From a virus, in IMG/VR virus record IMGVR_UViG_3300034283_002057, positions 1-50,115 of that record: a DNA stretch of 50,115 nucleotides; one strand, 5' to 3'. Positions 2,827 through 47,901 of this stretch are shown piece after piece; positions within the stretch are counted from its first letter, which is position 1, and each line of letters begins with the position of its first letter. The position numbers were made by a program, and so were the translations under genes. The notes below the pieces were generated by a model. It ran no database searches. It was given only the letters and a program-made list of their open reading frames with translations, and was not told the origin of the DNA.

Positions 2827-2855
2827 ATTATAACACACCTATGGGGGCTTGACAA
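2827..2855 (-). promoter_or_regulatory. sigma-70-type promoter for the gp55-gp47-gp46 operon
   Basis: On the minus strand a -35 box TTGTCA (2850-2855, one mismatch to TTGACA) and a perfect -10 box TATAAT (2827-2832) are separated by exactly 17 bases. Transcription would start near 2820, about 25 bases before the gp55 ATG. It is in the 110-base gap between gp55 and the next gene upstream. This is the arrangement expected for early expression by host polymerase. Confidence 0.8.
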
Positions 2856-2904
2856 GTTACGAATTTATGTGTAGACTACCTTTGTCCCGGTTGAAGATCA
2901 GGAT

Positions 2905-3312
2905 TTAGCTTTCTTTAAGTCCTTTAAAGATTCTTTCAAGACTCTTACGAGCATCTTCAACCGAAGATACGTAACCCATCTTCGAAGAAGGTTTTACTTG
3001 ACCTGCAGGATTGTAAAGATCAATACTATCATTATCTTCAATATAATTATTGTAAATATCAAGTAATTTTTTATCTTTAGTTTCAGTTATCGTAATAATT
3101 TTATCAAGTTTTACAATAAAGAAATCATCATCAGATAATTCCATCCAAGGTTTTACCTTAAGATAAGTTCCTTGTTGATTATTATAAGTTTTCATTGTTA
3201 CTGGATTCTGAAGCACTAGTACTGGATCTCCATCATTCTCATCCACAAGGACTAACGATAGAATCTCTTCACCTGATACTAGTTTTATAACTGCGTAAAA
3301 CTCTTCTCCCAT
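2905..3312 (-). CDS. conserved cyanophage protein, possibly Sm-like fold
   Basis: A 135-residue soluble acidic protein. I recognise the type as a common neighbour of uvsW and gp55 in cyanophages but know no function. The N-terminal half (about residues 5-75) alternates short strands in a pattern like Sm/LSm small beta-barrels: YAVIKLVSGEEILSLVLVDE, then V-L-V-L-Q-N-P, then a strand pair around FFIVKLDKIITI. The C-terminal 50 residues look helical and charged. An Sm-type fold would suggest RNA binding, but this is inferred from the strand pattern only. The ATG overlaps the uvsW stop by one base (TAATG), so it is probably co-transcribed with uvsW. Confidence 0.7.
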   Translation of the reverse strand: MGEEFYAVIKLVSGEEILSLVLVDENDGDPVLVLQNPVTMKTYNNQQGTYLKVKPWMELSDDDFFIVKLDKIITITETKDKKLLDIYNNYIEDNDSIDLYNPAGQVKPSSKMGYVSSVEDARKSLERIFKGLKES

Positions 3313-23902: not shown

Positions 23903-24092
23903 TTACAATCTCCCTCAATAAAGATTTAATTTCCTCAATATCCCTTTTCATTTCATCTAGTTCCTTTCTTTGAGTATTTCTATTGTTTAAACTATTGACA
24001 TATTGATTATATGATATATTGTCATGGTTGACAATTGCACCTGTTTCTTCATCCCTATATAAATTTGGATGTCCTTTGACTGGTATCATCAT
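23889..24092 (-). CDS. small coiled-coil protein downstream of the DUF4815 protein
   Basis: Up to 67 residues. The N-terminal part (VKGHPNLYRDEETGAIVNHD) resembles a short beta unit that I have seen in cyanophages and other marine phages; the C-terminal half (RKELDEMKRDIEEIKSLLREI) is a clear heptad coiled coil, suggesting oligomerisation. Two ATGs in tandem (24092 and 24089) overlap the TGA of the giant upstream gene as ATGATGA; either could be used. Possibly an assembly partner or small chaperone of a tail protein. Confidence 0.72.
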   Translation of the reverse strand: MMIPVKGHPNLYRDEETGAIVNHDNISYNQYVNSLNNRNTQRKELDEMKRDIEEIKSLLREIVNGSK

Positions 24093-30000: not shown

Positions 30001-31441
30001 ATGGTAGTTGATTCGCTGCTAGACCTTGATTTAAAACTAGAGTTGTATAAGTTTGTATGTCATAAAGATATAAATCCCAATTAGTAGTTGCTCCAGAATA
30101 AGCAGCATCGGTTAATCTGAAGTTATAAACTCTAGCATCTCCAATTTTAGTATTTGAAGATGGATTCCCAGAAGCACTTCTTCTTATCGAATGAAGTTCT
30201 ATAGATTCATTTTGTTTTGGAGATCCAGTTATATTATTAATTCTCAATAAATTTCCCATTTCAAAAGGAATATTTACATTTCTTTCGTTTTGAGTTTCTC
30301 TTGGTTTACTTACATCCAAAATAGTGGTTGTAACTTTTTCAATATCGTAACCCTTCACATATGCTTTTCCTGGTGATAATTTCACACACATTAAATCATC
30401 GGATGGAGTATTTCCAGACTCAGTTTTTTGATTGTCAAAAAATAGTCCATTATTTCCAAGTCTGCTATTTAAAGAATTGTGTAAAGAAATTTTAAATGGT
30501 TCTACAGAATAATTACCCGATTCATCAAAAGTTCTTTGTGCCAGATAATCTTTGATTAAAGAATACTGAGTTTTGACATTAACTTTTTTAATCTCGCCAT
30601 TTTCAATTCTTAGTATTTCAATAAAGTCAGTATCATTTTCTACACTGTCAATAGTTTTTTTAGTAAGGGATAAACCTATTTTAAATCTATCTGCTCCAGG
30701 GGCAGCATAATTTGTAAATCCTTTTGCATTATCATAAAGAGAAGAATCCTCTTTAGCAGTTATAATTTCTTCGGATACTTTAAGTCCTACTCTATATGAT
30801 GGTGTATTTGTATAATAATCTAGAATAATAGTTTGCTTAGATACCCTTGCAAATGTACCTCTCACAAAATAAATTCCATCGTCGATGGAAGCAGCAGAAC
30901 CTGTAGAAGTAGCATCTGTAGGTATCAAAGATGCAAAAGGAGTTCCTGATGCAATTGTAGTATTTCCATAAACAATACTTTCATTTGATACTAATGATTC
31001 TCCATCTTGGAATGGATTGATATTAAAATCATTGTCAGAATTTATATACTTCACATAGATTGTAACATAATCTAAATTATTGGTTGAATTTGGTATTTCG
31101 ACCTTTTGAACAAATGCGGTGATTCCCGAAATTTGACCTTCTACCAATTTTCCTACATATTGTTCAATATATGCTGATATGTTAACTCCAAAAGAAGTGG
31201 AATTTAATTTTACAGCAAAAAAGTTAGAATCATAAGTAGTGCTTCCCGGAATCACTACAGATCCTTCTTTAAAAATATGACTACCAAATGATTCAATTTG
31301 ATTTTGTAAAATTGATTGAATATTATTTAATTCTCTTGACTGTACTGGTCTTCCTGGATTGAAAAGAACTTTGTAAAAATTCTTTTCAGAATCAAAGTCA
31401 TCAAAATATGGACTTACATTTAGATTTGTCTTTTGTGCCAT
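24089..31441 (-). CDS. giant DUF4815-type virion protein (2450 residues)
   Basis: Very large baseplate or fibre-associated protein. Residues 1-80 carry the DUF4815 start (TNLNVSPYFDDFDSEKNFYKVLFNPGRPVQSRELNNIQSIL split here as YFDDFD and GRPVQSREL). The rest is beta-rich with many Ser/Thr/Asn. A central part near 1300-1400 is polar and low-complexity (NVTVNNNRRVANFDRRGQTE, then many Ser/Thr). Another region (about 1700-1800) has L-R-P-D-Q-I-N and Y-L-A-P-N-S-E-Y-A-I-V-L-L, typical of cyanophage tail proteins. A GY repeat (VVNPGNGYAVGDVV) lies near 1920 and an E-N-E-I-I-R-Y-x-x-I...R-G unit near 2080. It lies 3 bases from gp8, in the place of T4 gp9-gp12. The exact role is not known. Confidence 0.9.
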   Translation of the reverse strand: MAQKTNLNVSPYFDDFDSEKNFYKVLFNPGRPVQSRELNNIQSILQNQIESFGSHIFKEGSVVIPGSTTYDSNFFAVKLNSTSFGVNISAYIEQYVGKLVEGQISGITAFVQKVEIPNSTNNLDYVTIYVKYINSDNDFNINPFQDGESLVSNESIVYGNTTIASGTPFASLIPTDATSTGSAASIDDGIYFVRGTFARVSKQTIILDYYTNTPSYRVGLKVSEEIITAKEDSSLYDNAKGFTNYAAPGADRFKIGLSLTKKTIDSVENDTDFIEILRIENGEIKKVNVKTQYSLIKDYLAQRTFDESGNYSVEPFKISLHNSLNSRLGNNGLFFDNQKTESGNTPSDDLMCVKLSPGKAYVKGYDIEKVTTTILDVSKPRETQNERNVNIPFEMGNLLRINNITGSPKQNESIELHSIRRSASGNPSSNTKIGDARVYNFRLTDAAYSGATTNWDLYLYDIQTYTTLVLNQGLAANQLPSSSYVKGKSSGASGYASGAGDGTTTIKLTQTSGTFIIGEQIIINGLELYPRSIANITAYNSEDIKQVYQPTSTSGFTTAFIGDSVLDKQLPIGFNASDTININGGVVTSPGKFFNTIKVGSIIRYQSPNISDETFNRVDSISSTGNSITVSGIATVSGICDGAVGSVTNISFSLGVPKIRNSDKGYLYAELPNSNISQIDLNDSILTFSAQSTSAKSSSSPIVLSVSDFSLPSGLSTALFASFDEERYSVHYTDGTTQSLTPDQFSLSNNQVTLSKLTSGKTTSSINATFIKNGVQSKQKQYNRSNTLNVIYSKYPESGTGISTSINDGLVYNQYYGLRVQDEEISLNYPDVSRVLAVYESLNTSNPTLDSLSFSSILNVGTNAIVGENIIGSESGCVARVVSKSTNSVEIVYLNSNRFNSNEIVTFKESNITGEIDFITFGNYNDITNKFILDKGQKEQYYDYSKLIRNKGETEPSKKLLIVFDYYSVPPNDNGDVYTVASYNKEQFNSDVPLVGNNNVRASDTLDFRPKVPIFTTNTSSPFDFSNRNFSSLIKLNLTPNENTIIGYDYYLGRVDKIYLNKNGNFVYLEGLSSQNPKSPSKIDDLMELATITLPPYLYNVKNALLSLVDNRRYTMRDIGLIENRVKNLERVTSLSLLELSTQTLQVQDSQGFNRFKTGFFVDDFKDTERINKLFSSIEVDRESQEMRPIISRNSLKNYLAPAESATDESIDLSTNYELLDSNVKKTGSTVTLKYDSEKWLSQLIVTEIDGSPQVENVNPYHVVTYIGSIKLFPERDNWVRTIQLPDKVISVTDYVLVERSAVETENRNVTVNNNRRVANFDRRGQTETTSNTTQSLSSSQSVSDVSNTTRSTSSVNNLLQSSREEYMRSRNTEFSISNLKPYTRYYQFLDGNSSVDFIPKLIEIADSTSLQNSGASSAFTVGETVVGYDSQNKKIISFRVATPNHKFGSYNSPTTTFNVNPYIKSESLPNAYSTSSKVLNVDTYSLSEESQGLYSGYLVKGAKLVGQTSGSIAYVKDLRLISDNFGDMIGSFFIRDPNTVPAPDVRINTGNKTYKVTSSSTNEIPASGSASISSAETNYVSDGTLELYERTITNTDTVTTTRTTTTTVTLTNTKVVTTTEYYDPLAQSFSVGGSQTQNDDENGAYVTEVDLFFYRKDTANNPLTVQIRTLELGTPTRTVIGNSVTLRPDQINISNDASVATRVTFDYPIYLAPNSEYAIVLLAPESVEYEVFVAEQNQKTFRSANLPQGDAGKYGQQFAIGSLFKSQNGSIWTADQTKDMKFILYRANFITNTPSTVYFYNPTLNESNGYVKNLQSSPLTAFPRRLSVGITTTTNANTIGILTTGRKISESVKTYNYGYIVGTGCSVSSVGITTGGFNYVTDSNVSTFNIIGSGSGLTLNITSVSAGTSSISAISVVNPGNGYAVGDVVGIVTSSVSSNSGRNARITITGNNNGIDTLYLSNVQGESFTTDGTSNLVYYDNSNNAVTMGSTFIRSSTPTGSLYGGNFVKVNHFNHGMYAPNNKVAISGVLPNVSPTTLSQSITASSTSISVASTANFNTFEGKNVNGTNPGYVIVENEIIRYESIGSGTLETLSRGHFSTLAVPHDTNTPIYKYEFNGVSLSRINTTHDISDFGIDLDSYYIEIDRTSNGLSRGSDSTGYPQLSFTTELNYGGDSVFATENIQYDSIVPFYRIISPTDLTSVSAKIRTVSGTSVSGNETSFNDLGYEDIQLNSLNQLSSTRIVCSKVNEIEYLTELPRSKSFTTAITLQTTNKYVSPQIFLDNSFTDFHSNRINSPISNYSIDNRVNSFTEDPHSAVYVSNTVRLSQSATSLKVILSAYRHSSSDFRVLYSLIRPDSSEVTQSFELFPGYDNLTIDNNNDGYLDVVDPAKNSGLPDVFVRSSGENEFLEYEFSANNLGEFTGYIIKIVMSSTNQAHPPRFKDLRSIAIR

Positions 31442-31444
31442 TTC

Positions 31445-33046
31445 TTAGAATTCCAGGATAATTTTAATGTCTTCTTTTTGTCTAATGTTGCGAGAAACGA
31501 GAGGTCTATTATCAATATAAATTATATCTCCCGTCTTTTTATTTATCTCGGGATTTGCAAGTCCATTTGTAAATTCAATTCCTAAGTTTATAATCGCACC
31601 ATTAACTGTTGTAGTAATTCCACTTAAAGATGAAATTTTAGTTCCATTAAATCCACTATTTTCGCCAACAATAGTTCCTCCAGAATTGCTAAAATTAATA
31701 TTAGCATTTCCGTTCGTTGAAACTCCAACATAGTCAGTTTGATCGTGAGTTGATCCATAATACAAAGATCTATCTCTAAAGTATTTTAAGACTTTTGTAT
31801 CAGAATCATATGATGCAACATACCCAACTGCTATTCTGGTGCTAATGCCAACAGTAACGTTTTGAGTTATTTTTTCTCCAATTGTGGGGGGAATAGTATT
31901 TACTGAACTAAAATTAATTGCGTAAAGACCTGAGAATTGAGTGTCTGTAAAAGTCTCAATTCCTACAAATTTTGATGGATTTTTTAATATACCAATCTGA
32001 CAAAACTTGGTATTGATTGGAAAGTCTCTAGAAGAATCATCAAATCTACTATAAATCATCACCTTATCAGCACCCAGTTCTTTATATAAATCATATCCAT
32101 GACCTTTAGAGGGTGGAATTATTGGAATAAGTTTTGCTGGATTTGGAATATTTCCAGATGGTTGAATAGATCCCAAGTCAACTATCCCATAAGTATATCC
32201 TTTACCACCAGAAACTACTGTAGTGTTAATGATTTCTCCATTGGAATTTATCTCCACAGAAACTTCTCCACCAGTTCCATTTCCCAAAATAGGAACAGTA
32301 TGAGATCCCGTAGAATAATTTTTTCCAGGATTATCAATATAAACAGTTTTTATTTGATTATCATTTACTTCAGAGTTTCCATTTTCTCTTACCGAAACAA
32401 TTTGAGAATCAGTAGAAGTACTCCAATTATTGGGGAGAGTAATATATTCTGTAGAGTCAAACTTTACAATATCTCCGGGAGAAACGGTAAATAAGTATTT
32501 CCAAAAATATCCATCTCCACCAGTTCCTGCTACTGATGGTTCAAAAACAGTGTGTGTTGGTTCATATAAGGACTGATTTCCTGATGTATTAATTCCACTC
32601 GATCCATTTTTAGTGCAAATATAAACTTTATAGTCACTATTTAAAACATAATATTCGGAATCATATAATCTTGCTCTTTTTGCTACTGGACTAAGGTTGT
32701 TAATACTGTAGTCATGTCTATACATATCATATTTCTTGCCTCTTACCCAATCAACTCTTTTTACAACTCGTCTTATATTTGATGATGTAATTTTTTTTCC
32801 AAAAAGAAGAGTATCTTCATACTGAGTTAAATAATCTAAATTATCTATAGGATTTGGAACTACACCATTTGTTACTGGAGATCCCACAGGAGTTGTTCCA
32901 CCATCCCAATTTTCATTTCTGCCAAATCCAGTATATCTGTTTGGATTAGTTAAACCAACCCAAACATAATATGAATCATTATCTACTGATTCTATAAAAT
33001 TAGTAGCATTAAGAATTCTAAATTGATCTGTTACAAGTGCAGACAT
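31445..33046 (-). CDS. 8: gp8-like baseplate wedge protein
   Basis: Baseplate wedge subunit. It has 533 residues, longer than T4 gp8 (334). Correspondences with T4 gp8: the start ATxFRxxN-like QFRILNATNFIE, YTGFGRNENW, a G-Y-F-W-K-Y-L-F-T-V-S-P-G-D unit matching T4 G-Y-V-W-E-Y-L-F-E-I-P-P, T-E-Y-I-T-L-P matching N-E-Y-I-V-V-P, CQIGILKNP matching the I-S-I-I-T-N-P strand, and the last residues DIIYIDNRPLVSR...ILEF matching the T4 C-terminus. An insertion near 235-300 carries two GY repeats (NPGKNYSTG, GGKGYTYG). It has its own perfect late box. Confidence 0.9.
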   Translation of the reverse strand: MSALVTDQFRILNATNFIESVDNDSYYVWVGLTNPNRYTGFGRNENWDGGTTPVGSPVTNGVVPNPIDNLDYLTQYEDTLLFGKKITSSNIRRVVKRVDWVRGKKYDMYRHDYSINNLSPVAKRARLYDSEYYVLNSDYKVYICTKNGSSGINTSGNQSLYEPTHTVFEPSVAGTGGDGYFWKYLFTVSPGDIVKFDSTEYITLPNNWSTSTDSQIVSVRENGNSEVNDNQIKTVYIDNPGKNYSTGSHTVPILGNGTGGEVSVEINSNGEIINTTVVSGGKGYTYGIVDLGSIQPSGNIPNPAKLIPIIPPSKGHGYDLYKELGADKVMIYSRFDDSSRDFPINTKFCQIGILKNPSKFVGIETFTDTQFSGLYAINFSSVNTIPPTIGEKITQNVTVGISTRIAVGYVASYDSDTKVLKYFRDRSLYYGSTHDQTDYVGVSTNGNANINFSNSGGTIVGENSGFNGTKISSLSGITTTVNGAIINLGIEFTNGLANPEINKKTGDIIYIDNRPLVSRNIRQKEDIKIILEF

Positions 33047-33079: not shown

Positions 33080-36000
33080 TTAGGTTACCACCTTATCTTT
33101 TTTTACTAAAGATCCATTATTTCTCAATCCAAATCCTCTTCTCTGTATAACTGGATAAGTTGAAAGGCCTGCATTATATCCTTCACTACTTATACCTATA
33201 CTGGATGTGTATCCAGTAACAGCAATTGATACTGGTGATGAAGATCTGCTAAATCCAGATAATCTACCCCAACTCATTCTTCCTACAGGATAGTTAAGAG
33301 TTCCAGTAGTTGCAATTCCAACAATAGAAGTATTTGATGCAATATTGCATGTTATAATCCCTGTCGTAGAATTAAACGCATGAACTTTATAGATATTATT
33401 TAAATATGATGTACTGATTGCAACAATATTGGAATTTGAAGAATCAATGGATGTTACCCCACTACCAACATTAGTATTTGAAATGTAAACAGGATATCCA
33501 ACTTGAAGATCTGGTGGTGATGGATTTAAAGTAAATTTGAGTGCTAAAGGTACTCCGATCCCTGTAGTTGTAGCAATTCCAACAATAGAAGCACTAGATC
33601 CTTTAATATCATTTACACCCGTTAAAATTTCATATTGTGTGGAAAAATCTGTAGTTGCTATTCCAACATTTGTATTAGTAAACACAATTGCATTAAAACC
33701 TATTGGAAGAGTACTTGGATATTCATTTTCATAATCAAATAATGAAATATCATCAACAAAGATTTGAGTGATAGAATCATTAAAGTCTCCAATAATGTTT
33801 GCAGTAGGATAAATTTGTGATTCAATAGAATCTCTAGACTTGGAAACAATATCTCCATTAATTAATAAGTCAACTTTTTGCTTAGTCCAATAGAGCGGTT
33901 TTTCATTAGTAGAATCAATTCCTTGAGAAACATATAGATTAGTTTCAACTTTATCGGATCCAGTAATATCATAAACTATTCTCTTATCTTGAGTAATGGT
34001 ATTGTTAATGTTACTATTATTGCTGAAGACCTGGACAGTATCTCCTACTTTAATGGTTTCTGCGATATCTTCTTGGATACTATCTATACCCCTGGTTCCT
34101 CTATAGAAGAATATTGCAATATTATCTTCAGGTTTTGGGGGAACTGTAAATATGAATGATGTACCACCATTAAACTGATAAGAACTTCCTGGTTCTTGCA
34201 AAATTCCATTTACAAAAATGAGGAGAACATTATTTAAATTTACTGACTGAGAATCAGGTAGATTTTCATCAACTTCGAAACTTAATAACTCAGATTTATA
34301 GAATAATGGGAATCTAGTTCTTACACTATCCTGATAATTTTTAATAGAGTCAATATAATCTAATTCACCAAACTGCCAAGCAGCAAAAGAGTCTGTAAAT
34401 GTATCAAGAACAGTTAATTCAAATTCACTAATTGGAGATGCTAATCTTGCATCTGTCACTAGTCCTACTGGTTTAAATACATCACCTCTTCTAAACCCAT
34501 ATCCATTTCTTGTAATTTTGAAGTCTGTTACTTCAAAATAAGTAGATCCTATTCCAGTAGTGGAACTTGCACCAACTTCAACATTTAGGAGTAGTCCAGT
34601 TCCAGTATCTGTAGTTGTACCCACACTTAAACGAGAGACACCAATCACTGGTAAATTTTCATAGGAAGGTGATGAAACATTGATTGTTGGATTTGAGTAA
34701 CCACTTCCTCCTCCAACAATATTGAAGGACAATGTTCCTCCAGCGCCTACAATAGCAGTAATAGTCGCCGCAGACCCACTGTGACCTGATTCTGTGACTG
34801 CTACAGATACATTTCCCCTATATCCAGATCCAATAATATCTTGAGTGCCTAACCCTACAGATACTATAGATCCTCCAGAAACAACCGCAGTAACTGAAGC
34901 ACCTACTAACGGAGCGTAACCTAAACCAGAAGTTGATCCCAATGAAACAATTATACCTCCGCGAGGTAATTGATTCATGTTAATATCATAATCAGAGGTA
35001 TACGGTCCAGTATCGGATCTAATGCCAGTAAATGTAATCGATGTTATTCCCGTTACTATATTCTCGGTGATAACATAATTATTTGAAGAATTATTTAATG
35101 TAGTTGGTGATTGGAAAATACTATTAATAAAAACTATTCCATTTCCACCACTAGTACCCAGTCCAACAGTGTTTATTCCTTGAGAAGTTAAAATAAAAGT
35201 TTGACCTATTCCCGTAAAATTCTCAGAAATATCATCATAAATTTGATTTGAAGTATAATCTTGCCTTAAGAACACTCTACCAGAAAATGTTGCTCTTTCT
35301 CTTGGGAGAGCATTTTCATCAGGACCAATTAAATCTAATTGGTTTCCTCTCGGCGGTTGAGTAAAATAAATTTTATTTCCAGAAATATTATAAGATCCCC
35401 TATAAACCCTAACAATAGAAGTGTCCGTATGTATACCTGCAGTAGATCCTACAAATCCCCTAGTAACCTCTACTAATGGAATATTTCCAGTAAAGGTAAT
35501 CGGTCCGACACTTGTAGTTCCTAAACCAACGTTTTTAACACCAACATACTCATCATCTATTTTTAATAAGTCGGTAGGATTAATAGAACTAATTCCACTT
35601 AAAGCAAAAATAGTAGATGCGACACTAATTTGACCTCCATTATTTGATAGTGTGTGAGTTACATAAGAATATGAGATTGGATACTGTGCAAGATTATTAA
35701 TTGTAATTAAAGACTTTTCATTCTTTTTAAACATTTCCAATTCGTGAGCATTTCCTAAACCCAATGATGTAAATGTTACACCAATTCCCTGCTCAGCATA
35801 TTCTTTCTTAGTAGCAATTTTAATTGTATCTTTTGTTTCTCTAATAGCATATACAACTTCTGGTAATAGTGTTGTAACTACTCCAACATAATTTTCTGTG
35901 GCACCAATTCCTATTGGGGAAGTTCCAATGCCAATAAATGTTGATTTTGGTCTATAGATTAATTTCTCTCCAGTATTGAAGAAATGATTGGTAATTGTGC

Positions 36001-39000
36001 ATATTCCAGTTGCAAAGTCCAATGAAGTTGATGGATCAAAAGTCTTCATGAATATTTCACTCTCTTCACAATTTGCTTCAAAATCTAACTTATTTCTAAA
36101 CTGAGAGTTTATTCCAAAATAATTTGCAATTTTTACTGATTGACTAACTGGAGAATAATCTAGATCTGGAGGTATATTTGTAACATCTAAATCAGTATAA
36201 AAACACTCATTGAATGAAATTATTTCTATGTCTCCAGAAATAGAAACATCTGGATAGAATCTAAGAGTAAAGTTGGTCGAATCAACACTTGCTCCAAAAG
36301 TTCCTATTCCACTATTACTTCCAATTGATAAAAATGGATACTGTAATGTAGATACATTTGTACCATCATAAACGGTCATTACTTGATGTAAAGCAGTGGT
36401 TTTTCCTAAACCAACTCTTATAACAGATTTTACTGAAGTGAATAATGTCTTATCTAAAATAATTACACTAGTAGAACCAGAAGAAACATTATTATAATTA
36501 GATTCAAAAACAACTGTTCTTTCATTAGTGTTTATTTGTCCAGGAAGTTTAAATCTATAAAAATCTCCACCCAACGCTGTTGTCCCAAATCCAACATTCT
36601 TGGATCTTACAATTATATTTTCAGACTCTGTATTTGTATAATTTAATGATAAGATTCCCCCAGATAAGGAAGCACCGAATGATCCTATAGCACGATAACT
36701 CTCGCCTTCTTCACCATCAAAATAATATTCGGCAATGTAAGTATCGGATCCATCATGGGTCAAATAAATCTCAACATAATTCATGATAGAACTATCATTA
36801 TTCAATATATGAATATTTGAATAAACTGATGAATATTTTGTGGAATCTAAATTAATAATGGATGTAGTTATCCCACTAGAAACAATTCTGTTTTGAGATA
36901 TTAAATCTACACAATTTAAACTTTGGGTAGATCCAATTGCAGACTTACTAGTAAATGTATCTTGCAATATTTTGATATCAAAAGAAGAATCAAAAGGATC
37001 TTCTGGTACAAATTTTAGGTAAAATGCGCCTCCTTCATCCACATACCCTTCAATATTTGCTAGGAATGAATCTGGATTGAAAATTGTAGATCCATAACCT
37101 GTTGTACCTGTAGAAAATTCTCCTTTATACAATGTAAATATATTTTCATTATTATTGATAGTTACTATTTCACTAAATTGAGTTTCATTATTCAATATAT
37201 TTTTTACTTGTAATAAAAATTTATTGTATCCATTTGAAGAAACTATTGGAAGAATATTGGAAACATTTTCTCTTTCATCATCACTACTGGAAAATTGTGA
37301 ACTAATATCATCAATTTTTAAAACTCTATTTGTTTTGCATAAAACATAGTCTGAAAGACGAATGTTATCAAACTTTATAAACTTAGATTTATTGTCAATA
37401 GTATCTACATCAACTACAAGATCAAAATTATTAATAGTATCTACTCTATTATCTTCAACAAACATATTAATCAGAGATAATGTAGATTCTGTAGTTCCTA
37501 TTCCAGATTGGACATTTTGCTCAATTTGAGTGTCTGCAAAGTTTTTAGTACCACTAGTATGGAGTAGATTATTTACAGGAGTTACTATTTCTTCCCATGT
37601 TTTACTACTCTTCACTGTATATGATAGATTTTGATAGTAATCATTATCTGGTGTTACCTGTGTGTTTTCACTTAGTTTTCCAGTATCATTTTCCCATCCA
37701 AAATTTTGAAGATTGAAGTACCCAATGCTGTATATTCCATTTGCACTCTTAATAACGTCAATCTTTGCCTCACTAAATGATTGTAGACCTCTTATCCTTT
37801 CATTTGGAGAAAGTTTATAATTTCCGGAGACTCTTACACTGTTTTCGTCACAATCAGTTACAACTAAATCTCTAGTTATAAAACCAAGTCCATTGTCAGA
37901 AGACAAAGTTTCTCCTATTGAAAATGGTAAAAACTTTTGAGTAACTTCAAATTCTGGATAACTGTTATAATTTGTTATAGATGCATATGACTCTTGAATA
38001 GTTTTTGCTATACCAGGATTGGTAGTTAGTCCAGAAACACTAAATTCTAATCTGTCTGGGTTTAATCCAAAGTAATTTATTACTGTAAAAAATCTATATC
38101 CATAATCTGAAGAATTAAATCCATCACCAGATGAATCCGCCTTTTCAATTCCCTCCACAAATATTCTGTCACCAACTGCAAAGGGAGCAGAAGTGAATCC
38201 TGCTATGGGAGTAGTTAAAATGCAAGTGACTATGCCGGATGAAGAAGATTGGACTCTTTGTATTGAAGTTGAATTTGAATTGTTGATTGCTCTAATTGTA
38301 ACTGGTTTAATTGGGAGACCTTTGGGTTCTACTTCAATTTTTACTTCACCGATTGAAGATCCAGTTAAACTTGCCTTTAAAAATCCAGATTCAATCAATT
38401 CACCAGTGTCAGAGTCTATTAATATTAAATCTGGCGCTGAAGTATAATTTTGTCCACCATTTAAGATAGTTATAGAATCAATACTATTTGAAGAAGAAAT
38501 ATAAACGGATTGTGGAATATTTGCAGTTGGTCTTAAAGTTTTATCTGAAGCATATTCAAATCCCTCATTTACGATTCTACTCTGCGTAATCTTACCAATA
38601 GTTTCAGATGATGGAATAATGAATGCACCTTCACCATTTGTAGAATTAGATCCTGCAAAACGAGGAAGTGATTTATAATCATATCCACCAGAAATAAGAT
38701 TTACCTTATTAATTCCTCCGGTTGCTGTAGTGGAACTAGTGGTGTATTCTAATACATTACAATCATTTTTCCGATAAGAAAGTCTTTCTGGAATATTCTT
38801 TAAAGAAACTGTAAAAGTAGTAGTTGCTATTCCAATTATATTATACTCTGCTTTATACTTACTATCTACAAATATTATTTCGGAGTAATTGGAAACATCA
38901 GAATCTGCAGTACTAATATATCCAGACTTTTCTAGATTATAATAGAGTTTTTCTGGAACAGAATCTGTGTAATTGATAGTTAATGTGGCATTTGTGGATA

Positions 39001-42000
39001 CACCTACAGTGCCAACTCCAGAAATTGAAAGTGATTCGGTAGTTGCAATTGAAACAAATTCCTTATTAAAATCTTGATCATAATAAATTTTGAAATTGTA
39101 ACCAGACAAGGAAGAATCTGATAAGTCAAATACAAGATTATTATTTTTAATTGATTCAATTTGAGGATTAACTAAACTAATATTTTGTGTTCCAATTCCT
39201 GTACTTAATATGTTGAGGAATGTTGGATTGTTTGAAATAGAATCTAAATATGTATCACATAATTTTATATTATTACTATCTACTTTATAAACATAGTAAT
39301 TTCCAGTAACAATACCTGCAGGTATAGAATCCGCTTCATATAAGATTTTATCTCCGGTTATAAGATTATGAGAATTTATTGTAATTTGATTAGTTATTGT
39401 ATTAATTCCAGAAGAACTAAAAGATGTTGGATTAATAACTAAACTATTTGTATAAGAATTAAATTTAACTCTAATAGCAGTAGAAGTTCCTATTCCTACA
39501 GATAAATCTGGATTCACATTTAATGTTACTTTATCACCAACTGATAAATTGTGAGATGTTGAAACAGAAACTACTGTGTTTATTTTATTAACATCTGCAG
39601 TAACTTGAGTAAAGTTTGATTCTATTGAGTATCTGTAATCATCATTTGCAGACGACCAACTGGTATTTCTAAAAAATAATCCATTAGTATTTGTCGTTAG
39701 TCCAACATTAGTTACTATACCAATATAATCTTTAGATTTGTTAATTGCATACAATGTTTCAGAATTACCACTTAAAATATTGAAAGAAGCACTCGTAGAA
39801 GTATTTGAAACTGCAATAGGATCGCCACCAGTTGGTTTTCTGAAGATTACTTGCTGACCAGTAACAAATGGGTGATTTGGTATAAAAATACTTTGAGTTG
39901 GAATAAAAGTATTATATGTTGTTATTCCAATATTATAGGTTACATTTATACCTATTCCAACTGTTGTACCAATTCCTACCGATTTTGTGGGGTTATAATA
40001 TACTATATTATTTACTTTTGACTCAAAATAATCTGAAGAATTATTTACGGTAAATGAATCTGGGAGGAAGTAAACTGGAGTTGTCTGAGTATGTATTCCA
40101 CCACTTACATTTCTACTTACTCTAACCACACCAAAATTATTGTAGATATTGAGAACTGAAAAAATTTCATTATCAATTTTAAAACTACTTCCAACTGCAA
40201 CATTTTGTGGTATTGATGTTAAATAAACATCAGTTACTATTCCTGTAGAAGCATACGCCGGAATTTGCTTATCTAGTATTGTGGAATAGGTTGTTAATCC
40301 AATTTGATATGCCCCATTAAGATTGGAAACTTGATCAGATAATCCAGAGATATTGATATTGTCTCTATTTAAAAATTCATGGTATGGTGCAATATAAACT
40401 CTAACAGTATTTCCATTCACCCAAGTAATAAGAGAATCATTATATGATTGAATAGTAGTATTAATATCATTTATTTGTTTACCTTTTATTTCTGATACTT
40501 TTGCAAATATTCCAATACCTTCAGTATCACTTTCGTCAAATGTTATTTGATCGTTTACTTTGTAATTAGACCCAGAATTTACAACCTCTAAAGCAGAAAC
40601 ACTACCGGAAGACACTGATTCAATCAGTGTCTTTTGTTCTATAATTTCATTTGATTCTACAATAAAATCATTGTCTGCATATTCCTCATTTACCTTGTAG
40701 GGGAACGTATTTCTAATTAGTGAAGAATTATTAAAATCGAATGATTGATCTAAAGATAAATTTTCTTCAATATATGGTGATCTGTATTCATTACCAATAA
40801 AATACGGAAACTTTCCAACAATATTTCCATTGTCATTAGTCTTAACTGTTGCAAAATATGCATAAATTCCCTCTGGAAAATCTTTAGTTTTTCCAAATCT
40901 TCCGTTATATTGATCCAAATCTCCACTATTTGTAAACTCATAATCTTCTACAAAATAACCAAAAGGAAAACTTGAAGTAGATGGTCGATTTTCAATATTT
41001 GCTTGAGAATAACCAGGTTCTAATTTTTTAACAAGTCTAGTATCATTGGGATCTGAATACCCATAAGATCCATAAATTGGATTTCCATCATATGCCCATC
41101 CAATAATATCGGAGTGAGTTGTAGTTGCTCCATTGTCTTTAATATTATTTTTTATATTTCCAGAATAACCAACAATAGCATATTCTAAATTATTGTCAGT
41201 TTCAACTAGTATTTCTGTCGCTGGATCTCTATAATTTCCACTTTGAATTCCATACTTATATGAGTTATTCAGAGTTAAAGACCTTACACTAGATTCAAAT
41301 ACTGCATTTTTGCCTGCAGAAATAGCAAAAACTACTGTATCTGTACTGGTATATCCTGCTCCTGGATTAACAACAACAACATCTACTATTTTATTATCGG
41401 AAACTATTGGTCTAAGATTTGCCCCAATACCACTACCAGATACAACTAAATCTGGTGTAGAATAGTAATCTTGCCCACCATATAATACTGATACATCAAC
41501 TATTCTACCATTTTCAATCAGTGGTTTAAATTGTGATTCTTTTCCATTCTTTACAACAACTTGAGGTCTCTGATGTGTATTTAAGATCAAAGATCCATAA
41601 TCAGATCCTTTTTCATAGGTATAAACTTGATCAATATTTCCTCTAATTATTGGAGTTGTAACAATAGATCCTCTAACTTGAGTACTTCCCAATCCAACAG
41701 ATGTATATTCAACCGATAGCACAATATCAGGATAATTAAAAATTTGATATCCAGATCCAGTCGTTGAAAACTTCACATAATTTTTTCTTTCGTAATTGGA
41801 AGTATCTGTCCCGTTAATTCCAGCATAACAAAGTCTAAACTTGTTAGAATCTAATTTTAATACTTGATACCTTGCTGAAGTTGATAGTCCAGATATAGCA
41901 GTAGTTTCATAACTGTAAGTTACAATCTCTCCATTTGAAAATCCATGATTTTCAAATTCTATCGTATGGTTATAAGTAGATATTCCAATTGGTTTTACTC

Positions 42001-44839
42001 TTAACTTTCTATTTGTGTACCCATTTCCACTATTGATTACTTTTATTTCGGATAATTTATTCTTTACCTCAGTTTTAAACTTTTGAATTCCAACATTTCC
42101 AATTGTGGTAAATCCAACAGTATTAATCCCCGCAGAATAATCCGATAAACTTTGGTAAATTTCAATAGTTCTATCATTAATTATTTTAGAATAATAAGTT
42201 GCACCATTTATAAGTGTTTTGGATTGATCTAAGTTTGATCCCCCAAAAGTTCCAATTCCTATTGGACTGAAGTTATTGCTATTATAAACAATAGGTTGAC
42301 CATTTATTAGATTATGATTTTTTGTGAATGCAATTCTTTCATTAACAAAATCTAGACCACCACCATTAGAAAGAGGTCTAGCATCAAATTCAATTTCTCT
42401 AACGTATTTTTCTATAATTGGTTGGAAACTTGCACCAGAACCATTACCTCCAGTAAGTGCTACAGAAACAATAACGTCTACATCAAAGTCTTGAGGATCT
42501 ACAAATATTTTTTCAACAGATCCTTTAACTACAGGTTGTATAAGAGCATTGCCAGTTGATAAACTTAATGATGGTGGATTTATAACATCATATCCACTTC
42601 CACCATTGAGTACATTGACATTATCTAAAGGACCATAGTAAACTTTATCTTGAGTTTTATAATTGTATATTTCAACACCATTTTTTAATAATCCAATAGG
42701 ACCTGGAACAGTTTCATATATTTTATTATCACCAATTGTCTGATTTAACTTAAATTTTCTAAGAAGTTTTTGTGGAGAAATTGTCTTAGATCTTTGAGAA
42801 TATAATACAAACCTATGAATTCCCGATACGATTCCATTTGAGAATTGTCCAAAAGTGACATAACCATTGGATCCAATAGTAGAGTTGCTCAGATATAACC
42901 TAATTCTTGTATTATTAATGTTCGAATCCGAATTAGTTAATACCTCAACATAGTAAGGTCCTTCTACTAAACCTTCTATGGTATTTGTATTTTGGGTATA
43001 ATAGTATACTTTGTCTCCAGTTATGAATGAAACAGGATTTTTTATTCCGAAAGAAATTTGACTATAAGATCCATTGTTTTCCTCTTCCAAACTAGTCGCA
43101 GTGTATTCAAAAACATTAGTTTGTATTGGATATGCTGGAATAGAATTGGAAGCAATATACAAACTGTCGGAATTTTCATCATAAAGATTTTGTACATCAG
43201 AAGTTATTTTATTATTTCCAAACTGAATTGGTACAATCGTAGATGATGCTTTTTTAACTTTTCTTCTAATATCGTAGTTTACATCAGAATTTAAGGAAGA
43301 AGTACTTACATTAATTGTTATTTCATTTCCAGAAATTGATATGACATTTACATTTTCAAAACCAGAAATTACAGTCTCACTATTTCGCAGTAAAACTTCA
43401 ATTGAATCTCCAACTGCCAAACTTGTGTTGTCTATAGAAGATTTTGTTGTAAGAGTACTAGAAACAAAAGAATCTATTTGATATCTAGAACTGGTATTAT
43501 AAATCCATGTATTTGCAAAAATTTTATCTATTTCCCCACCTTTGGATATAATTTTTCCAAGATTTTGTGGATATATCTCTTCTCCCTCTAAGAAATTGTA
43601 TGAATTTGAATTTATAACTATATTAGATAAAACTCCAGTAATTATAAACTCTACCTTTTTAGTTGTGTCTCCGTCTTCATATCCATAATAAGTATCATTA
43701 GATATAATTTTAGAAGTCTTGCTAATATTAATTGATTGATTAGAATCTATGTAACATCCTAAAAATTGATTAATAGTTTTTTCGGAATAAAATATTTCAT
43801 TCTCATTATAAAAAATACTTCCAGATTCTGCAAATCCTACTGTAGAATCTACAGTAATTATTGTACCAACATTATTTAAAGTAACATCTTCAACTACTTT
43901 AGTATTTGGTGTTATAGAAAAAGTGCCTGTAATATTTGGATAAGTGTCATCATATCCAATAAAAAAGTTTAGTTTGTAATATGTCTTTCCCTTTCTAGTG
44001 ATTGTTTCTACTTCAGAGACTGATGCAGTAGTATTTTCATCAGTAGATTTTTTAATTGTCTGACCAGATAACTTAGTAGGGTCACCAGAAATTACATCAA
44101 CTATGGCAACATTTCTTCTTATAAATTTGGCATCAGATGGTTTAATTAAAAATTGCTCCAAGTCTACTACAGTTGGAGTTTCGCCAAACAAAACATTAAA
44201 TAAAATTCTGAAGGATTCTGCAGTTCCTTTTGATTCGTAAAGAGTTCTTGCCTCTTTTATAAAATTTCCAACATTTAAATTTGAAGTAAAATCTAGACCT
44301 TCAAGACCTGGAGTTAAACTAAATTTAATTTTTTTATAAAATTCCTGTAAAAATAATGAACTAAGATTTTCAATAACCGTACCTGCAGAGTGAGATGCAG
44401 CCGAAGATTCGGTAAAAACTAATTCTTGATATTCCAAATCTTTGTGATAATTTGTAATACCACTAAAACCACGAACACACCCAGTGAATGTATTTGTTGT
44501 AATTCCAGTATATGTAATTATTTCATCATCAATTTTTAACAGTCCATAAGAAGAAGGAAATCCTTTAGTTGATGTGACAGTAACAATTCCAGAAGATGCG
44601 GAAATATGAGTTGTTAATCCTGTAGATCCTACAATAACTTCAGGAATAAGACTATCGAGGTTTATATATTGATCTAAATTCTCAGCAATATCTACCGGAC
44701 CACCTTGATACTCTTGAGAAATATAATACTGCTTTAAAAATTCAGATGCCTTTGGATTTTCATCTAAAACAAATTCTGGTAATTGACTATCAATTATTTG
44801 CTGTACTTTTACTCTTGACTCGAAACCATTTTGTACCAT
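33080..44839 (-). CDS. 7: giant gp7-like baseplate wedge protein (3919 residues)
   Basis: The largest gene in the window, 11.76 kb. Residues about 20-60 and 195-330 resemble the C-terminal part of T4 gp7: Y201-E-S-K-G-T-A-E-S-F-R-I-L-F-N-V-L-F against T4 Y-S-T-K-G-I-E-A-S-Y-K-F-L-F-K-V-L-Y, then L-S-G-Q-T-I and a K-T-Y-Y-K-L-N strand. T4 gp7 is 1032 residues. The remainder is a beta-rich chain with GY repeats (near 750, 940, 1120-1165, 1420, 2055, 2130, 3380), E-N-E-I-x-x-Y/R-G-x-x-G units, and a YHYH-type domain at about 1235-1390 (IIGWAYDGNPIYGSYGY, LDQYNGRF, FPEGIYAYFAT, FPYFIGNEYR). Residues about 3530-3660 resemble T4 gp10. It is 1 base from gp6, as gp7 is next to gp6 in T4. Confidence 0.88.
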   Translation of the reverse strand: MVQNGFESRVKVQQIIDSQLPEFVLDENPKASEFLKQYYISQEYQGGPVDIAENLDQYINLDSLIPEVIVGSTGLTTHISASSGIVTVTSTKGFPSSYGLLKIDDEIITYTGITTNTFTGCVRGFSGITNYHKDLEYQELVFTESSAASHSAGTVIENLSSLFLQEFYKKIKFSLTPGLEGLDFTSNLNVGNFIKEARTLYESKGTAESFRILFNVLFGETPTVVDLEQFLIKPSDAKFIRRNVAIVDVISGDPTKLSGQTIKKSTDENTTASVSEVETITRKGKTYYKLNFFIGYDDTYPNITGTFSITPNTKVVEDVTLNNVGTIITVDSTVGFAESGSIFYNENEIFYSEKTINQFLGCYIDSNQSINISKTSKIISNDTYYGYEDGDTTKKVEFIITGVLSNIVINSNSYNFLEGEEIYPQNLGKIISKGGEIDKIFANTWIYNTSSRYQIDSFVSSTLTTKSSIDNTSLAVGDSIEVLLRNSETVISGFENVNVISISGNEITINVSTSSLNSDVNYDIRRKVKKASSTIVPIQFGNNKITSDVQNLYDENSDSLYIASNSIPAYPIQTNVFEYTATSLEEENNGSYSQISFGIKNPVSFITGDKVYYYTQNTNTIEGLVEGPYYVEVLTNSDSNINNTRIRLYLSNSTIGSNGYVTFGQFSNGIVSGIHRFVLYSQRSKTISPQKLLRKFKLNQTIGDNKIYETVPGPIGLLKNGVEIYNYKTQDKVYYGPLDNVNVLNGGSGYDVINPPSLSLSTGNALIQPVVKGSVEKIFVDPQDFDVDVIVSVALTGGNGSGASFQPIIEKYVREIEFDARPLSNGGGLDFVNERIAFTKNHNLINGQPIVYNSNNFSPIGIGTFGGSNLDQSKTLINGATYYSKIINDRTIEIYQSLSDYSAGINTVGFTTIGNVGIQKFKTEVKNKLSEIKVINSGNGYTNRKLRVKPIGISTYNHTIEFENHGFSNGEIVTYSYETTAISGLSTSARYQVLKLDSNKFRLCYAGINGTDTSNYERKNYVKFSTTGSGYQIFNYPDIVLSVEYTSVGLGSTQVRGSIVTTPIIRGNIDQVYTYEKGSDYGSLILNTHQRPQVVVKNGKESQFKPLIENGRIVDVSVLYGGQDYYSTPDLVVSGSGIGANLRPIVSDNKIVDVVVVNPGAGYTSTDTVVFAISAGKNAVFESSVRSLTLNNSYKYGIQSGNYRDPATEILVETDNNLEYAIVGYSGNIKNNIKDNGATTTHSDIIGWAYDGNPIYGSYGYSDPNDTRLVKKLEPGYSQANIENRPSTSSFPFGYFVEDYEFTNSGDLDQYNGRFGKTKDFPEGIYAYFATVKTNDNGNIVGKFPYFIGNEYRSPYIEENLSLDQSFDFNNSSLIRNTFPYKVNEEYADNDFIVESNEIIEQKTLIESVSSGSVSALEVVNSGSNYKVNDQITFDESDTEGIGIFAKVSEIKGKQINDINTTIQSYNDSLITWVNGNTVRVYIAPYHEFLNRDNINISGLSDQVSNLNGAYQIGLTTYSTILDKQIPAYASTGIVTDVYLTSIPQNVAVGSSFKIDNEIFSVLNIYNNFGVVRVSRNVSGGIHTQTTPVYFLPDSFTVNNSSDYFESKVNNIVYYNPTKSVGIGTTVGIGINVTYNIGITTYNTFIPTQSIFIPNHPFVTGQQVIFRKPTGGDPIAVSNTSTSASFNILSGNSETLYAINKSKDYIGIVTNVGLTTNTNGLFFRNTSWSSANDDYRYSIESNFTQVTADVNKINTVVSVSTSHNLSVGDKVTLNVNPDLSVGIGTSTAIRVKFNSYTNSLVINPTSFSSSGINTITNQITINSHNLITGDKILYEADSIPAGIVTGNYYVYKVDSNNIKLCDTYLDSISNNPTFLNILSTGIGTQNISLVNPQIESIKNNNLVFDLSDSSLSGYNFKIYYDQDFNKEFVSIATTESLSISGVGTVGVSTNATLTINYTDSVPEKLYYNLEKSGYISTADSDVSNYSEIIFVDSKYKAEYNIIGIATTTFTVSLKNIPERLSYRKNDCNVLEYTTSSTTATGGINKVNLISGGYDYKSLPRFAGSNSTNGEGAFIIPSSETIGKITQSRIVNEGFEYASDKTLRPTANIPQSVYISSSNSIDSITILNGGQNYTSAPDLILIDSDTGELIESGFLKASLTGSSIGEVKIEVEPKGLPIKPVTIRAINNSNSTSIQRVQSSSSGIVTCILTTPIAGFTSAPFAVGDRIFVEGIEKADSSGDGFNSSDYGYRFFTVINYFGLNPDRLEFSVSGLTTNPGIAKTIQESYASITNYNSYPEFEVTQKFLPFSIGETLSSDNGLGFITRDLVVTDCDENSVRVSGNYKLSPNERIRGLQSFSEAKIDVIKSANGIYSIGYFNLQNFGWENDTGKLSENTQVTPDNDYYQNLSYTVKSSKTWEEIVTPVNNLLHTSGTKNFADTQIEQNVQSGIGTTESTLSLINMFVEDNRVDTINNFDLVVDVDTIDNKSKFIKFDNIRLSDYVLCKTNRVLKIDDISSQFSSSDDERENVSNILPIVSSNGYNKFLLQVKNILNNETQFSEIVTINNNENIFTLYKGEFSTGTTGYGSTIFNPDSFLANIEGYVDEGGAFYLKFVPEDPFDSSFDIKILQDTFTSKSAIGSTQSLNCVDLISQNRIVSSGITTSIINLDSTKYSSVYSNIHILNNDSSIMNYVEIYLTHDGSDTYIAEYYFDGEEGESYRAIGSFGASLSGGILSLNYTNTESENIIVRSKNVGFGTTALGGDFYRFKLPGQINTNERTVVFESNYNNVSSGSTSVIILDKTLFTSVKSVIRVGLGKTTALHQVMTVYDGTNVSTLQYPFLSIGSNSGIGTFGASVDSTNFTLRFYPDVSISGDIEIISFNECFYTDLDVTNIPPDLDYSPVSQSVKIANYFGINSQFRNKLDFEANCEESEIFMKTFDPSTSLDFATGICTITNHFFNTGEKLIYRPKSTFIGIGTSPIGIGATENYVGVVTTLLPEVVYAIRETKDTIKIATKKEYAEQGIGVTFTSLGLGNAHELEMFKKNEKSLITINNLAQYPISYSYVTHTLSNNGGQISVASTIFALSGISSINPTDLLKIDDEYVGVKNVGLGTTSVGPITFTGNIPLVEVTRGFVGSTAGIHTDTSIVRVYRGSYNISGNKIYFTQPPRGNQLDLIGPDENALPRERATFSGRVFLRQDYTSNQIYDDISENFTGIGQTFILTSQGINTVGLGTSGGNGIVFINSIFQSPTTLNNSSNNYVITENIVTGITSITFTGIRSDTGPYTSDYDINMNQLPRGGIIVSLGSTSGLGYAPLVGASVTAVVSGGSIVSVGLGTQDIIGSGYRGNVSVAVTESGHSGSAATITAIVGAGGTLSFNIVGGGSGYSNPTINVSSPSYENLPVIGVSRLSVGTTTDTGTGLLLNVEVGASSTTGIGSTYFEVTDFKITRNGYGFRRGDVFKPVGLVTDARLASPISEFELTVLDTFTDSFAAWQFGELDYIDSIKNYQDSVRTRFPLFYKSELLSFEVDENLPDSQSVNLNNVLLIFVNGILQEPGSSYQFNGGTSFIFTVPPKPEDNIAIFFYRGTRGIDSIQEDIAETIKVGDTVQVFSNNSNINNTITQDKRIVYDITGSDKVETNLYVSQGIDSTNEKPLYWTKQKVDLLINGDIVSKSRDSIESQIYPTANIIGDFNDSITQIFVDDISLFDYENEYPSTLPIGFNAIVFTNTNVGIATTDFSTQYEILTGVNDIKGSSASIVGIATTTGIGVPLALKFTLNPSPPDLQVGYPVYISNTNVGSGVTSIDSSNSNIVAISTSYLNNIYKVHAFNSTTGIITCNIASNTSIVGIATTGTLNYPVGRMSWGRLSGFSRSSSPVSIAVTGYTSSIGISSEGYNAGLSTYPVIQRRGFGLRNNGSLVKKDKVVT

Positions 44840-44840
44840 A

Positions 44841-46796
44841 TTATGACCTCGTTAAACTCCCGTTCGAATAACTTGAGCGATAAGAATTTTTTGTAAAGAC
44901 AATACCAGAAATGTCCTCACCAGATGCAATAGTATCCTTTACCATATTTATTTGACTTTTTGAAATGTCAAAAGAGACATAAAGATCTTTCAGTCCCACA
45001 ACATCATTTGATTCCGGATATGCTTGTATTTCAATGATATCATTTTTAAGAGAAGTTGATGTAATGGTAACTGTGTTAATAATTATTTCTCCAGTTTCAT
45101 AATTAACTACTCCAGCAGATTGTATAATAACAAATGGTTGTATGGAAACATTAGATTGTGTTTCCATACTTGTATTATTTGTTGGTTTTACAATTGCAAT
45201 AACACCAGTTTTACCATCAGAATTTGGAACATCGCTGAAATAAACAACATCTGGTTCATTTTGTATTGTAAATCCTGATGACTTTATATTATATCCGTAT
45301 TGATTTACGTGGAATTGATTTCCAAAACAAATTTCATATTGTGCTTGTTTATTTACTAGTGCTTTTAAATCTCTTCTTATTCTCACTCTGGTAATATTTG
45401 ATGTAATAGCATTATCCGTACCGTCTATAACTTGTAAGACTTTACTATATTTAAATCTTCCACCAAATTTATTTAAATTAACAGACTGTGAATACTTTGT
45501 CAGAGATGTATTTATTTTTGTTTTTAAATCGGAAGAACTTGCAATCTGACTTTCATTATAATAAATGTAAGACTCAATTTCAACATAGAGAATCTTGAGA
45601 TCTATGATTTTTGCATTTATTCCAGAAACACTATATTGTTTCAATTTTGAAAGTATGTTGTCTTTATCAAAATCAGAAACAAAAGTACCATTCTTTGGTT
45701 TAATGCTAATTAAAACAGTTCCAAATTGGGGAGGTGATAACTCTTCTCCACCAATCACAGAAATGGACTCTGCATTTCCATATATTTTGGATTTTATGAT
45801 CGTTTCATAATCACTTGCAGTTACTGCTCTATACTGAGAGGCATATAACCTTGGAGCAAAATAACGAATGGAGTCTATAGTTTCAATTTCAGAACCATTC
45901 TGGGATCTTTGATTTGTTGTAACTGTGATTGTGTTTTGTGGAATTACATTCCTATCATCAGAATCTCTTAAAGATCCTGCAAAAGTGAATGTTTCTACAC
46001 CATTACCATCTTTTCCACTTGTTATGATGTAGTTGCTGGTAATAATTGCACCATTTTCTAGTTTCTGTCCAAAAAATCCATCCCCAAAAAGAAGTTGATA
46101 TTTTTCATCTTGAACTTCTTGAATCAAAAAGATTTGAGAATTTGAATCAACTTGAAAAATATTATCAACTAATGAATATTTTATTCCGAGTCCACTATCA
46201 CTTGATCCTTTTACATAAACTCTAATTGTAGAACTATCAATAAAAGAGTTTTCAAGTATAAATCTTTGATCTAAAGAAGCATTTACAGTAAATCTTTTTG
46301 TAAGAAAAGTTCCTTCTTTAATTGAGATACTATCAAATGATGCTATTCCATTTACCACTGGAACTGTGATGTTCTCGGGAATAGAAAAAACATAAGAGGT
46401 GCCTTTTACCGATCCAGTGCATACAAGACCTGCCTGCAAGGTCACTGTGGGGGTATAGACTGGTGTACCGTCTTGTAGGAAACTGTTGGGTGATACGGTT
46501 ACTGTAAACGATACAATTGCCTCGGAGGCATTTCTAGAGTATGGAACATATCCAATATTTCTTGCAAGAGATACTACATTTTCTCTTACGGTTGCAGAGT
46601 CCAAGAAGGACTCATTTATAACCATATTAGAGTTAAATGCTGTAATGTATGTGTTATACGCTAAGGTATCGATTAAGACAGAAAAATTGGATCCTTCAAA
46701 ATCAAAGTCCGTAAATGTAGAGTTAGCACGGAGATAATCTTTGATCGAAGTCTTTATTTGATCGAAATCTAGATTTGTAAATTTAGTAAAAGGCAT
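44841..46796 (-). CDS. 6: gp6-like baseplate wedge protein
   Basis: Wedge subunit forming the continuous inner ring of the baseplate. It has 651 residues against 660 in T4. The N-terminus (FTNLDFDQIKTSIKDYLRAN, F-x-G-S-N-F-S-V-L-I-D-T-L-A-Y-N-T, ESFLDSATVRENVVSLARNIGYVP) is the conserved gp6/J-type region. The middle has a V-T-A-S-D-Y-E-T-I-I unit followed by V-I-G-G-E-E-L-S-P-P-Q-F-G, and S-I-K-P-K. The genes on both sides are only one base away. Confidence 0.95.
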   Translation of the reverse strand: MPFTKFTNLDFDQIKTSIKDYLRANSTFTDFDFEGSNFSVLIDTLAYNTYITAFNSNMVINESFLDSATVRENVVSLARNIGYVPYSRNASEAIVSFTVTVSPNSFLQDGTPVYTPTVTLQAGLVCTGSVKGTSYVFSIPENITVPVVNGIASFDSISIKEGTFLTKRFTVNASLDQRFILENSFIDSSTIRVYVKGSSDSGLGIKYSLVDNIFQVDSNSQIFLIQEVQDEKYQLLFGDGFFGQKLENGAIITSNYIITSGKDGNGVETFTFAGSLRDSDDRNVIPQNTITVTTNQRSQNGSEIETIDSIRYFAPRLYASQYRAVTASDYETIIKSKIYGNAESISVIGGEELSPPQFGTVLISIKPKNGTFVSDFDKDNILSKLKQYSVSGINAKIIDLKILYVEIESYIYYNESQIASSSDLKTKINTSLTKYSQSVNLNKFGGRFKYSKVLQVIDGTDNAITSNITRVRIRRDLKALVNKQAQYEICFGNQFHVNQYGYNIKSSGFTIQNEPDVVYFSDVPNSDGKTGVIAIVKPTNNTSMETQSNVSIQPFVIIQSAGVVNYETGEIIINTVTITSTSLKNDIIEIQAYPESNDVVGLKDLYVSFDISKSQINMVKDTIASGEDISGIVFTKNSYRSSYSNGSLTRS

Positions 46797-47538: not shown

Positions 47539-47865
47539 TTAACGATTCAGTTCTCTGATGTTATAATTGTCTGAATTTAGGTATTTTAAGAGTTCTAAAG
47601 CAATTAATTTTGGATTTCCTTCACCACATGTGTAAACATCGATGGCAAGACATCCATTTTCGGGCCATGTATGGCAGGAAACATGACTTTCTGCAAGTGC
47701 AATGACGATTGTACATCCCTGAGGAAGAAAACAATGGGAAAATGTGTTTAAAATCGTCATTTTTGCACGATTTATTCCCCTAATCATGGCATTTTGAAGC
47801 GATTCTACATCATTAATCGCTTCAAAATTAACATCATACACCTCTAAGAGCAGGTGTTTACCCAT
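47539..47865 (-). CDS. speD: S-adenosylmethionine decarboxylase (SpeD), auxiliary metabolic gene
   Basis: Makes decarboxylated S-adenosylmethionine, the aminopropyl donor for spermidine synthesis. The signature LAESHVSCHTWPENG...AIDVYTCG is that of prokaryotic SpeD: autocleavage between Glu and Ser creates the pyruvoyl group on Ser (residue 60 counted from the ATG at 47865), with the catalytic His five residues further on and the active-site Cys in the Y-T-C-G block. A frame with a TTG start at 47895 would add ten residues (118 in total). I prefer ATG 47865 because MGKHLLLEVYD aligns with the usual SpeD start and the AATAAATA box 37 bases upstream would start transcription near 47896. With this start it has 108 residues. 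Likely supports nucleic-acid condensation or host metabolism during infection. Confidence 0.93.
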   Translation of the reverse strand: MGKHLLLEVYDVNFEAINDVESLQNAMIRGINRAKMTILNTFSHCFLPQGCTIVIALAESHVSCHTWPENGCLAIDVYTCGEGNPKLIALELLKYLNSDNYNIRELNR

Positions 47866-47901
47866 CGACTTATGTTCCAATTCAGGTTTCAGCAAAAAAT
47901 T

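Follow-up and report, generated by a model that had tools for sequence, protein, structure and literature searches.

What is the 3919-residue protein that lies among the baseplate genes of this T4-like cyanophage, and does any part of it stand in for gp10? A sequence-only reading had placed the protein at 33080-44839 and proposed that it may be a fusion of gp7 and gp10 of the T4 baseplate wedge, in which the part taken to come from gp10 lies near residues 3530-3660. The window, i.e., the whole stretch of 50115 bases that was analyzed, is a fragment of a T4-like cyanophage with its main genes on the minus strand (to which the coordinates given here for the giant, its domains, gp6, gp8 and the DUF4815 protein refer), and a single uninterrupted frame of 3919 codons indeed occupies 33080-44839. 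Our analysis makes it probable that this frame encodes the gp7-type wedge protein known from T4-like cyanophages, here in giant form, consisting of an N-terminal wedge core and a β-rich arm that would form the rim, with a C terminus that is not a gp10.

The giant is a known object, a member of phrog_2885, a family whose annotation as gp7 is of long standing. The phrog_2885 profile, named "baseplate wedge subunit," matches it with an E value of 0 and 3550 bits (best stretch, residues 4-3328), and its last 510 residues match the family at positions 3597-3911. Among the ten named cyanophages compared, the closest full-length relative is the "baseplate wedge initiator" of S-SRM01 (QPX48159), with 69% identity over residues 1-3915. 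Phage records matching the giant number 461 for its first 340 residues and 93 for its last 470, and the names in both sets are all Synechococcus, Prochlorococcus, cyanophage or marine. Several relatives carry a gp7 annotation, including the 5195-aa PSSM2_111 of P-SSM2. The giant resembles these cyanophage gp7 proteins (P-SSM2 and S-SRM01, in phrog_2885) over its whole length, in gene place, in its N-terminal core and in its C-terminal modules; the differences are that lengths vary and that the B23, DSL-LC02 and S-SSM7 versions are split. A 6619-aa protein, S-SZBM1_208, which our sequence comparison identifies as a homologue of the giant, is listed among virion proteins with 71 peptides (PMC9146016).

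Gene order tells the same story. On the minus strand, a gp25-like frame is followed by gp6 (44841-46796; Pfam Gp6-like), the giant, gp8 (31445-33046; Pfam Phage-Gp8, E 9.7e-12), a 2450-aa DUF4815 protein and then neck genes, which puts the giant between gp6 and gp8 as gp7 is in T4. The arrangement is kept in relatives: gp6 is immediately upstream in 74 of 74, gp8 is the next gene in 66 of 69 loci and, in every one of the 58 relatives in which this could be tested, the DUF4815 protein lies downstream of giant and gp8. In P-RSM4 the giant is separated from gp8 by a gene for gp9 and another for a 1380-aa YHYH protein.

The evidence that the start of the giant is a gp7 relative comes from profiles, predicted folds and this gene order. 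The gp7 signature that had been noticed in the first ~330 residues is there, with LYESKGTAESFRILFNVLF...LSGQTI in the giant and FYSTKGIEASYKFLFKVLY...LVGQTI in T4 gp7. When 36 query profiles were compared by HHalign with ten T4 profiles (gp25 not among them), giant residues 198-290 matched T4 gp7 residues 732-811 at 94.1% (E 1.2e-7) and the overlapping window 151-450 did so at 90.4%; the positive controls in this run, gp6 and gp8, matched their T4 counterparts at 100% and 98.4%, and everything else was below 4%. An AlphaFold2 model of residues 1-480 has a pLDDT of 63.2. With Foldseek, its best match was chain 9f4a_A0 from phage KP1, with an E value of 2.1e-3, which is above 1e-3, and a probability of 0.57. 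With VIA, residues 762-849 of 5iv5_BJ superimposed on giant residues 238-411 (Z 8.6, rmsd 2.4, 86 aligned residues) and 9f4a_A0 on residues 235-412 (Z 8.3), while the next-best match spanning the core residues, among the matches listed, had a Z of 6.8. Both PDB entries contain gp7, and the length and numbering of 5iv5_BJ and 9f4a_A0 indicate that these chains are gp7. Taken together, the profile and model comparisons show that residues ~198-411 (43607-44248) carry a gp7 core matching T4 gp7 residues 732-849, with two predicted β modules in and before it. The first of these (residues 70-162; 44354-44632), an insertion in the gp7 core, is predicted with a block pLDDT of 63-82, dipping to 47 at 131-140, and matches residues 479-560 of a JBD30 baseplate chain in VIA (Z 8.7); the second spans residues ~310-381. 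Further upstream, predicted helices at residues 6-43 (44711-44824), with pLDDT mostly below 50, probably correspond to the helical domain of gp7; by profile, this part is collinear with the T4 helical region, in weak matches (0.3 and 1.9%) below significance. The Pfam models for T4 gp7, Gp7_5th, Gp7_6th and Gp7_helical, have no match in the giant at E values up to 1, and we have therefore filed it as a distant homologue of cyanophage type, outside those Pfam families. Nor did a profile of the first 480 residues find anything among PDB sequences, and profile comparison showed no counterpart in the giant for the first ~640 residues of T4 gp7 or for domain VI of that protein. The layout is in effect turned round: in T4 gp7 the core lies near the C terminus after extra domains, whereas in the giant it is N-terminal with a huge arm after it. 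This layout should be a useful guide for model building in future maps of these viruses.

The C terminus is a different matter. The letters that had suggested gp10 are present: NGILQE and NLYVSQG start at residues 3544 and 3634 of the giant and at residues 314 and 405 of T4 gp10, a spacing of 90 versus 91 residues. Pure chance can be set aside for the pair, since in 2000 residue shuffles of gp10 an exact 7-mer together with an in-register 6-mer never occurred; a shared 7-mer alone occurred in 26. What is not confirmed is the parallel at the level of families. We aligned 62 distinct giant C termini, drawn from 87 with 80% coverage among 96 matches, and NLYVSQG, which had been held to carry the argument, is exact in 5 of these and in 2 of 29 gp10s, while NGILQE is exact in 17 and 4, respectively. 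The family consensus at the NLYVSQG site is ETNLYxxQGID in giants versus TDxxYVxxG in gp10s. To the eye, the stretch between the motifs in gp10 is a ~37-residue loop inside its strand-pair module, whereas in the giant a short module ends and another GD-strand segment of ~35 residues follows, and on this by-eye reading the near-equal spacing would not be structural. We think instead that a common strand module shared by the two proteins, together with recent letter changes, may explain the likeness. The strand module that contains VNGILQE in the giant (residues 3462-3592; 34064-34456, with NGILQE itself, residues 3544-3549, at 34193-34210) is common to the S-SZBM1, P-RSM4, S-SSM7, B23 and DSL-LC02 proteins and is modeled with a block pLDDT of 63-83 (model residues 91-170). 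NLYVSQG (residues 3634-3640; 33920-33940) falls in a low-confidence block with pLDDT 27-45 (model residues 181-270).

Profile and fold searches address the same question. A profile-profile comparison of the kind that had been suggested, made with HHalign, gave 0.7% for window 3451-3750 against gp10. In small windows, gp10 came first for all four C-terminal queries when these were compared with 109 windows of ten T4 proteins, at no more than 11.6%, and each gp10 match listed covers 12-33 columns, none of them over NLYVSQG. Conversely, when 75 windows cut from the giant and from the DUF4815 protein were compared with gp10, the two NGILQE windows ranked first and second (8.5 and 7.3%), aligning on gp10 residues 304-397, which are mostly gp10 domain 3. 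As far as profiles go, no other spot of the giant is as gp10-like as the NGILQE region, which reaches 3-12% when small windows are used. No Pfam domain of gp10 supports it further: the gp9/10 N-terminal domain (PF07880) is not found in the giant at E values up to 1, Gp10_D3 (PF22670), the domain holding NGILQE, is found neither in the giant at E values up to 1 nor in the segment up to 10, and Gp10_C (PF21939) is found neither in the giant nor, up to 10, in the C-terminal segment. Other phage fiber and virion families match the segment better than gp10 does, which is what the sequence-only reading had said would refute it; besides phrog_2885, the module at residues 3462-3600 matches phrog_701 (E 8.6e-6), phrog_18802 (E 1.5e-4) and the tail fiber family phrog_18673 (E 7.5e-4), with no match to the gp10 family phrog_958 at E values up to 10. 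The predicted model of the C-terminal part has an overall pLDDT of 59.0. With it, Foldseek found nothing in the PDB at an E value of 1e-3, and KP1 gp10 ranked 13th (E 0.2, probability 0.16), below tail and unrelated proteins. Among the 50 VIA matches listed there is no gp10 chain, but another domain fills these matches, which makes them uninformative on gp10. When predicted viral structures were searched, the top matches bearing a name were cyanophage proteins, wedge initiators among them. Neither end of the giant found a phage tail relative among PDB chains, whether by sequence or by profile. The other candidates gp9, gp11 and gp12 reach at most 0.3% by HHalign in the four windows from residue 3301 on. 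We conclude that the C terminus of the giant consists of β modules common to the giants of cyanophages and is most probably not a gp10: it shares with T4 gp10 the VNG-x-x-Q strand motif and NLYVSQG by letters, but differs in having no gp10 domain by sequence model, significant profile match or significant fold match. The earlier proposal is half right, in that the protein is homologous to gp7 and of the giant type already known from cyanophages, without a supported gp10 part.

If the C terminus is not gp10, where is gp10 in these viruses? We searched ten complete cyanophage genomes, with T4 as control, and Gp10_C matched in T4 only, as did Gp10_D3 above its cut-off; the absence of a separate gp10 homologue, on which the sequence-only reading also depended, is borne out for these genomes by both models. 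The sole weak Gp10_D3 match (14.6 bits, E 0.0055, below cut-off) is in the DUF4815 protein of B23 (record positions 141925-142206, inside b23_0260, locus L276). The gp9/10 N-terminal domain was found in T4, S-SSM7 and P-RSM4. According to a 2010 review, cyanomyoviruses lack g10, g11 and g12, whose functions are probably performed by other proteins (PMC2984593). The absence of a separate gp10 leaves room for a gp10 that has been replaced or has diverged, and a true gp7-gp10 fusion would have answered what replaces it. The missing gene, the motif pair and the ranking of the NGILQE windows are what such a fusion has in its favor. Yet with no gp10 Pfam domain, a profile probability of 0.7% and motif letters that neither family conserves, we reject fusion by descent. 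Stoichiometry is a further difficulty, since Table 1 of PMC3004832 gives T4 six copies of gp7, each a monomer, and 18 of gp10, grouped in trimers, a ratio that a one-to-one fusion would break. We consider it very unlikely that this chain combines the two proteins and that its residues near 3530-3660 derive from gp10. Hardly better is the chance of a softer version, in which one chain per wedge supplies the gp7 core and, via its arm, the rim work of gp10, the VNGILQE module being what is left of an eroded gp10 domain 3, even though such a chain would explain the absence of gp10 from these phages.

Two places to look for a replacement are the arm of the giant and the DUF4815 protein (24089-31441; 2450 aa, PF16075 E 3.3e-55), which by its position is a candidate for the gp10-type component that is missing. 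The latter might replace gp10 and other rim proteins while the giant mainly supplies gp7, although we consider this less likely than not; it is compatible with the giant being the gp7-type wedge protein described above. The invariable position of the DUF4815 gene, roughly where gp9 and gp10 come after gp8 in T4, speaks for it, as does the weak Gp10_D3 match in B23. Its homologue in S-SZBM1, S-SZBM1_203, is reported among virion proteins detected by mass spectrometry with an emPAI of 1.03 versus 0.41 for the giant (PMC9146016), a rough hint of more copies, but emPAI is a poor copy count here since the sheath has 0.72 in the same data despite 138 copies in T4 (PMC3004832). No window of the DUF4815 protein matches gp10 by HHalign profile, so it was rejected as a gp10 homologue; as a gp10 substitute, beyond the Gp10_D3 match and emPAI, it has position alone to recommend it. 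A different possibility is that the giant is mainly a fiber-like receptor-binding protein anchored by its gp7 core. It is modular, β-rich and variable in length (named relatives in which it is not split have ~3880 to 6619 residues), and it contains parts common to fiber families and a barrel resembling one in the phi92 endosialidase. Its end-to-end conservation with S-SRM01, and a mean column identity of 53% over its last 510 residues in 41 relatives, are less like a fast-changing host-range tip, and we hold this reading to be rather unlikely.

How might the gp7-type giant that we favor work? By homology, its N-terminal core would lie in each wedge packed against the gp6 dimer and gp8, as gp7 does, and so nucleate the wedge. 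The remaining ~3500 residues would be a modular β-rich arm running outward to build the baseplate rim, and this arm might carry fibers or meet host receptors. We propose these roles for the arm because the insert at residues 70-162 and the arm (after residue ~410) are placed like the spike-holding parts of gp17 from Vibrio phage XM1. This 242-aa gp7 orthologue is described as having its core helices at residues 1-48 and as holding tail spikes by residues 80-106 and 201-242, an inner loop and C-terminal tail (PMC10457771). The two proteins share core helices at the N terminus, which in the giant are predicted with low confidence, and outward parts in an inner loop and a C-terminal tail, a likeness of layout seen without alignment, and they differ in that the arm of the giant is vastly longer. 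Among the papers listed in our literature search, there was none on a solved Kyanoviridae baseplate. The giant is naturally split into two frames in three relatives, a sign that the arm may be separable from the rest. In DSL-LC02 the two adjacent frames correspond to giant residues 1-2435 and 2471-3713, in B23 to residues 9-2875 and 2910-3888, and in S-SSM7 a 340-aa gp9-like gene lies between them. The protein encoded by this intervening gene (L008:12608-13627) bears a gp9/10 N-terminal domain. Of 40 IMG/VR loci that extend 9 kb or more upstream of the C-terminal match, three contain the beginning of the frame, and in one of these (L056) there is an N-terminal match near the frame start. In the S-SKS1 record (L004:8982-21374), the giant is spread over four frames that overlap, with no gene annotated for the first two, and this reflects either frame errors in the record or genuine splitting.

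Other domains of the giant also have relatives elsewhere. A YHYH domain (PF14240) is found at residues 1233-1335 (40835-41143; hmmscan E 7.1e-24); in P-RSM4 and S-SZBM1, a YHYH domain occurs in a smaller protein of its own, encoded near the giant. The C-terminal β barrel at residues 3745-3857 (33269-33607) has a predicted fold like the FCCH domain of ubiquitin E1, with VIA Z scores of 8.5 to UBA6 residues 211-290 and 7.6 to phi92 endosialidase residues 256-337, values near 8 that can reflect a common arrangement. Pfam E1_FCCH gave a weak match in the S-SSM7 relative, at 19.1 bits and below its cut-off. Long central Gly-Tyr β repeats resembling those of the giant are seen in the neck protein at 20654-22045 (T4_neck-protein, residues 4-177). 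The small frame at 47539-47895 looks by its sequence like an S-adenosylmethionine decarboxylase, and S-SRM01 has an annotated S-adenosylmethionine decarboxylase just before its gp25.
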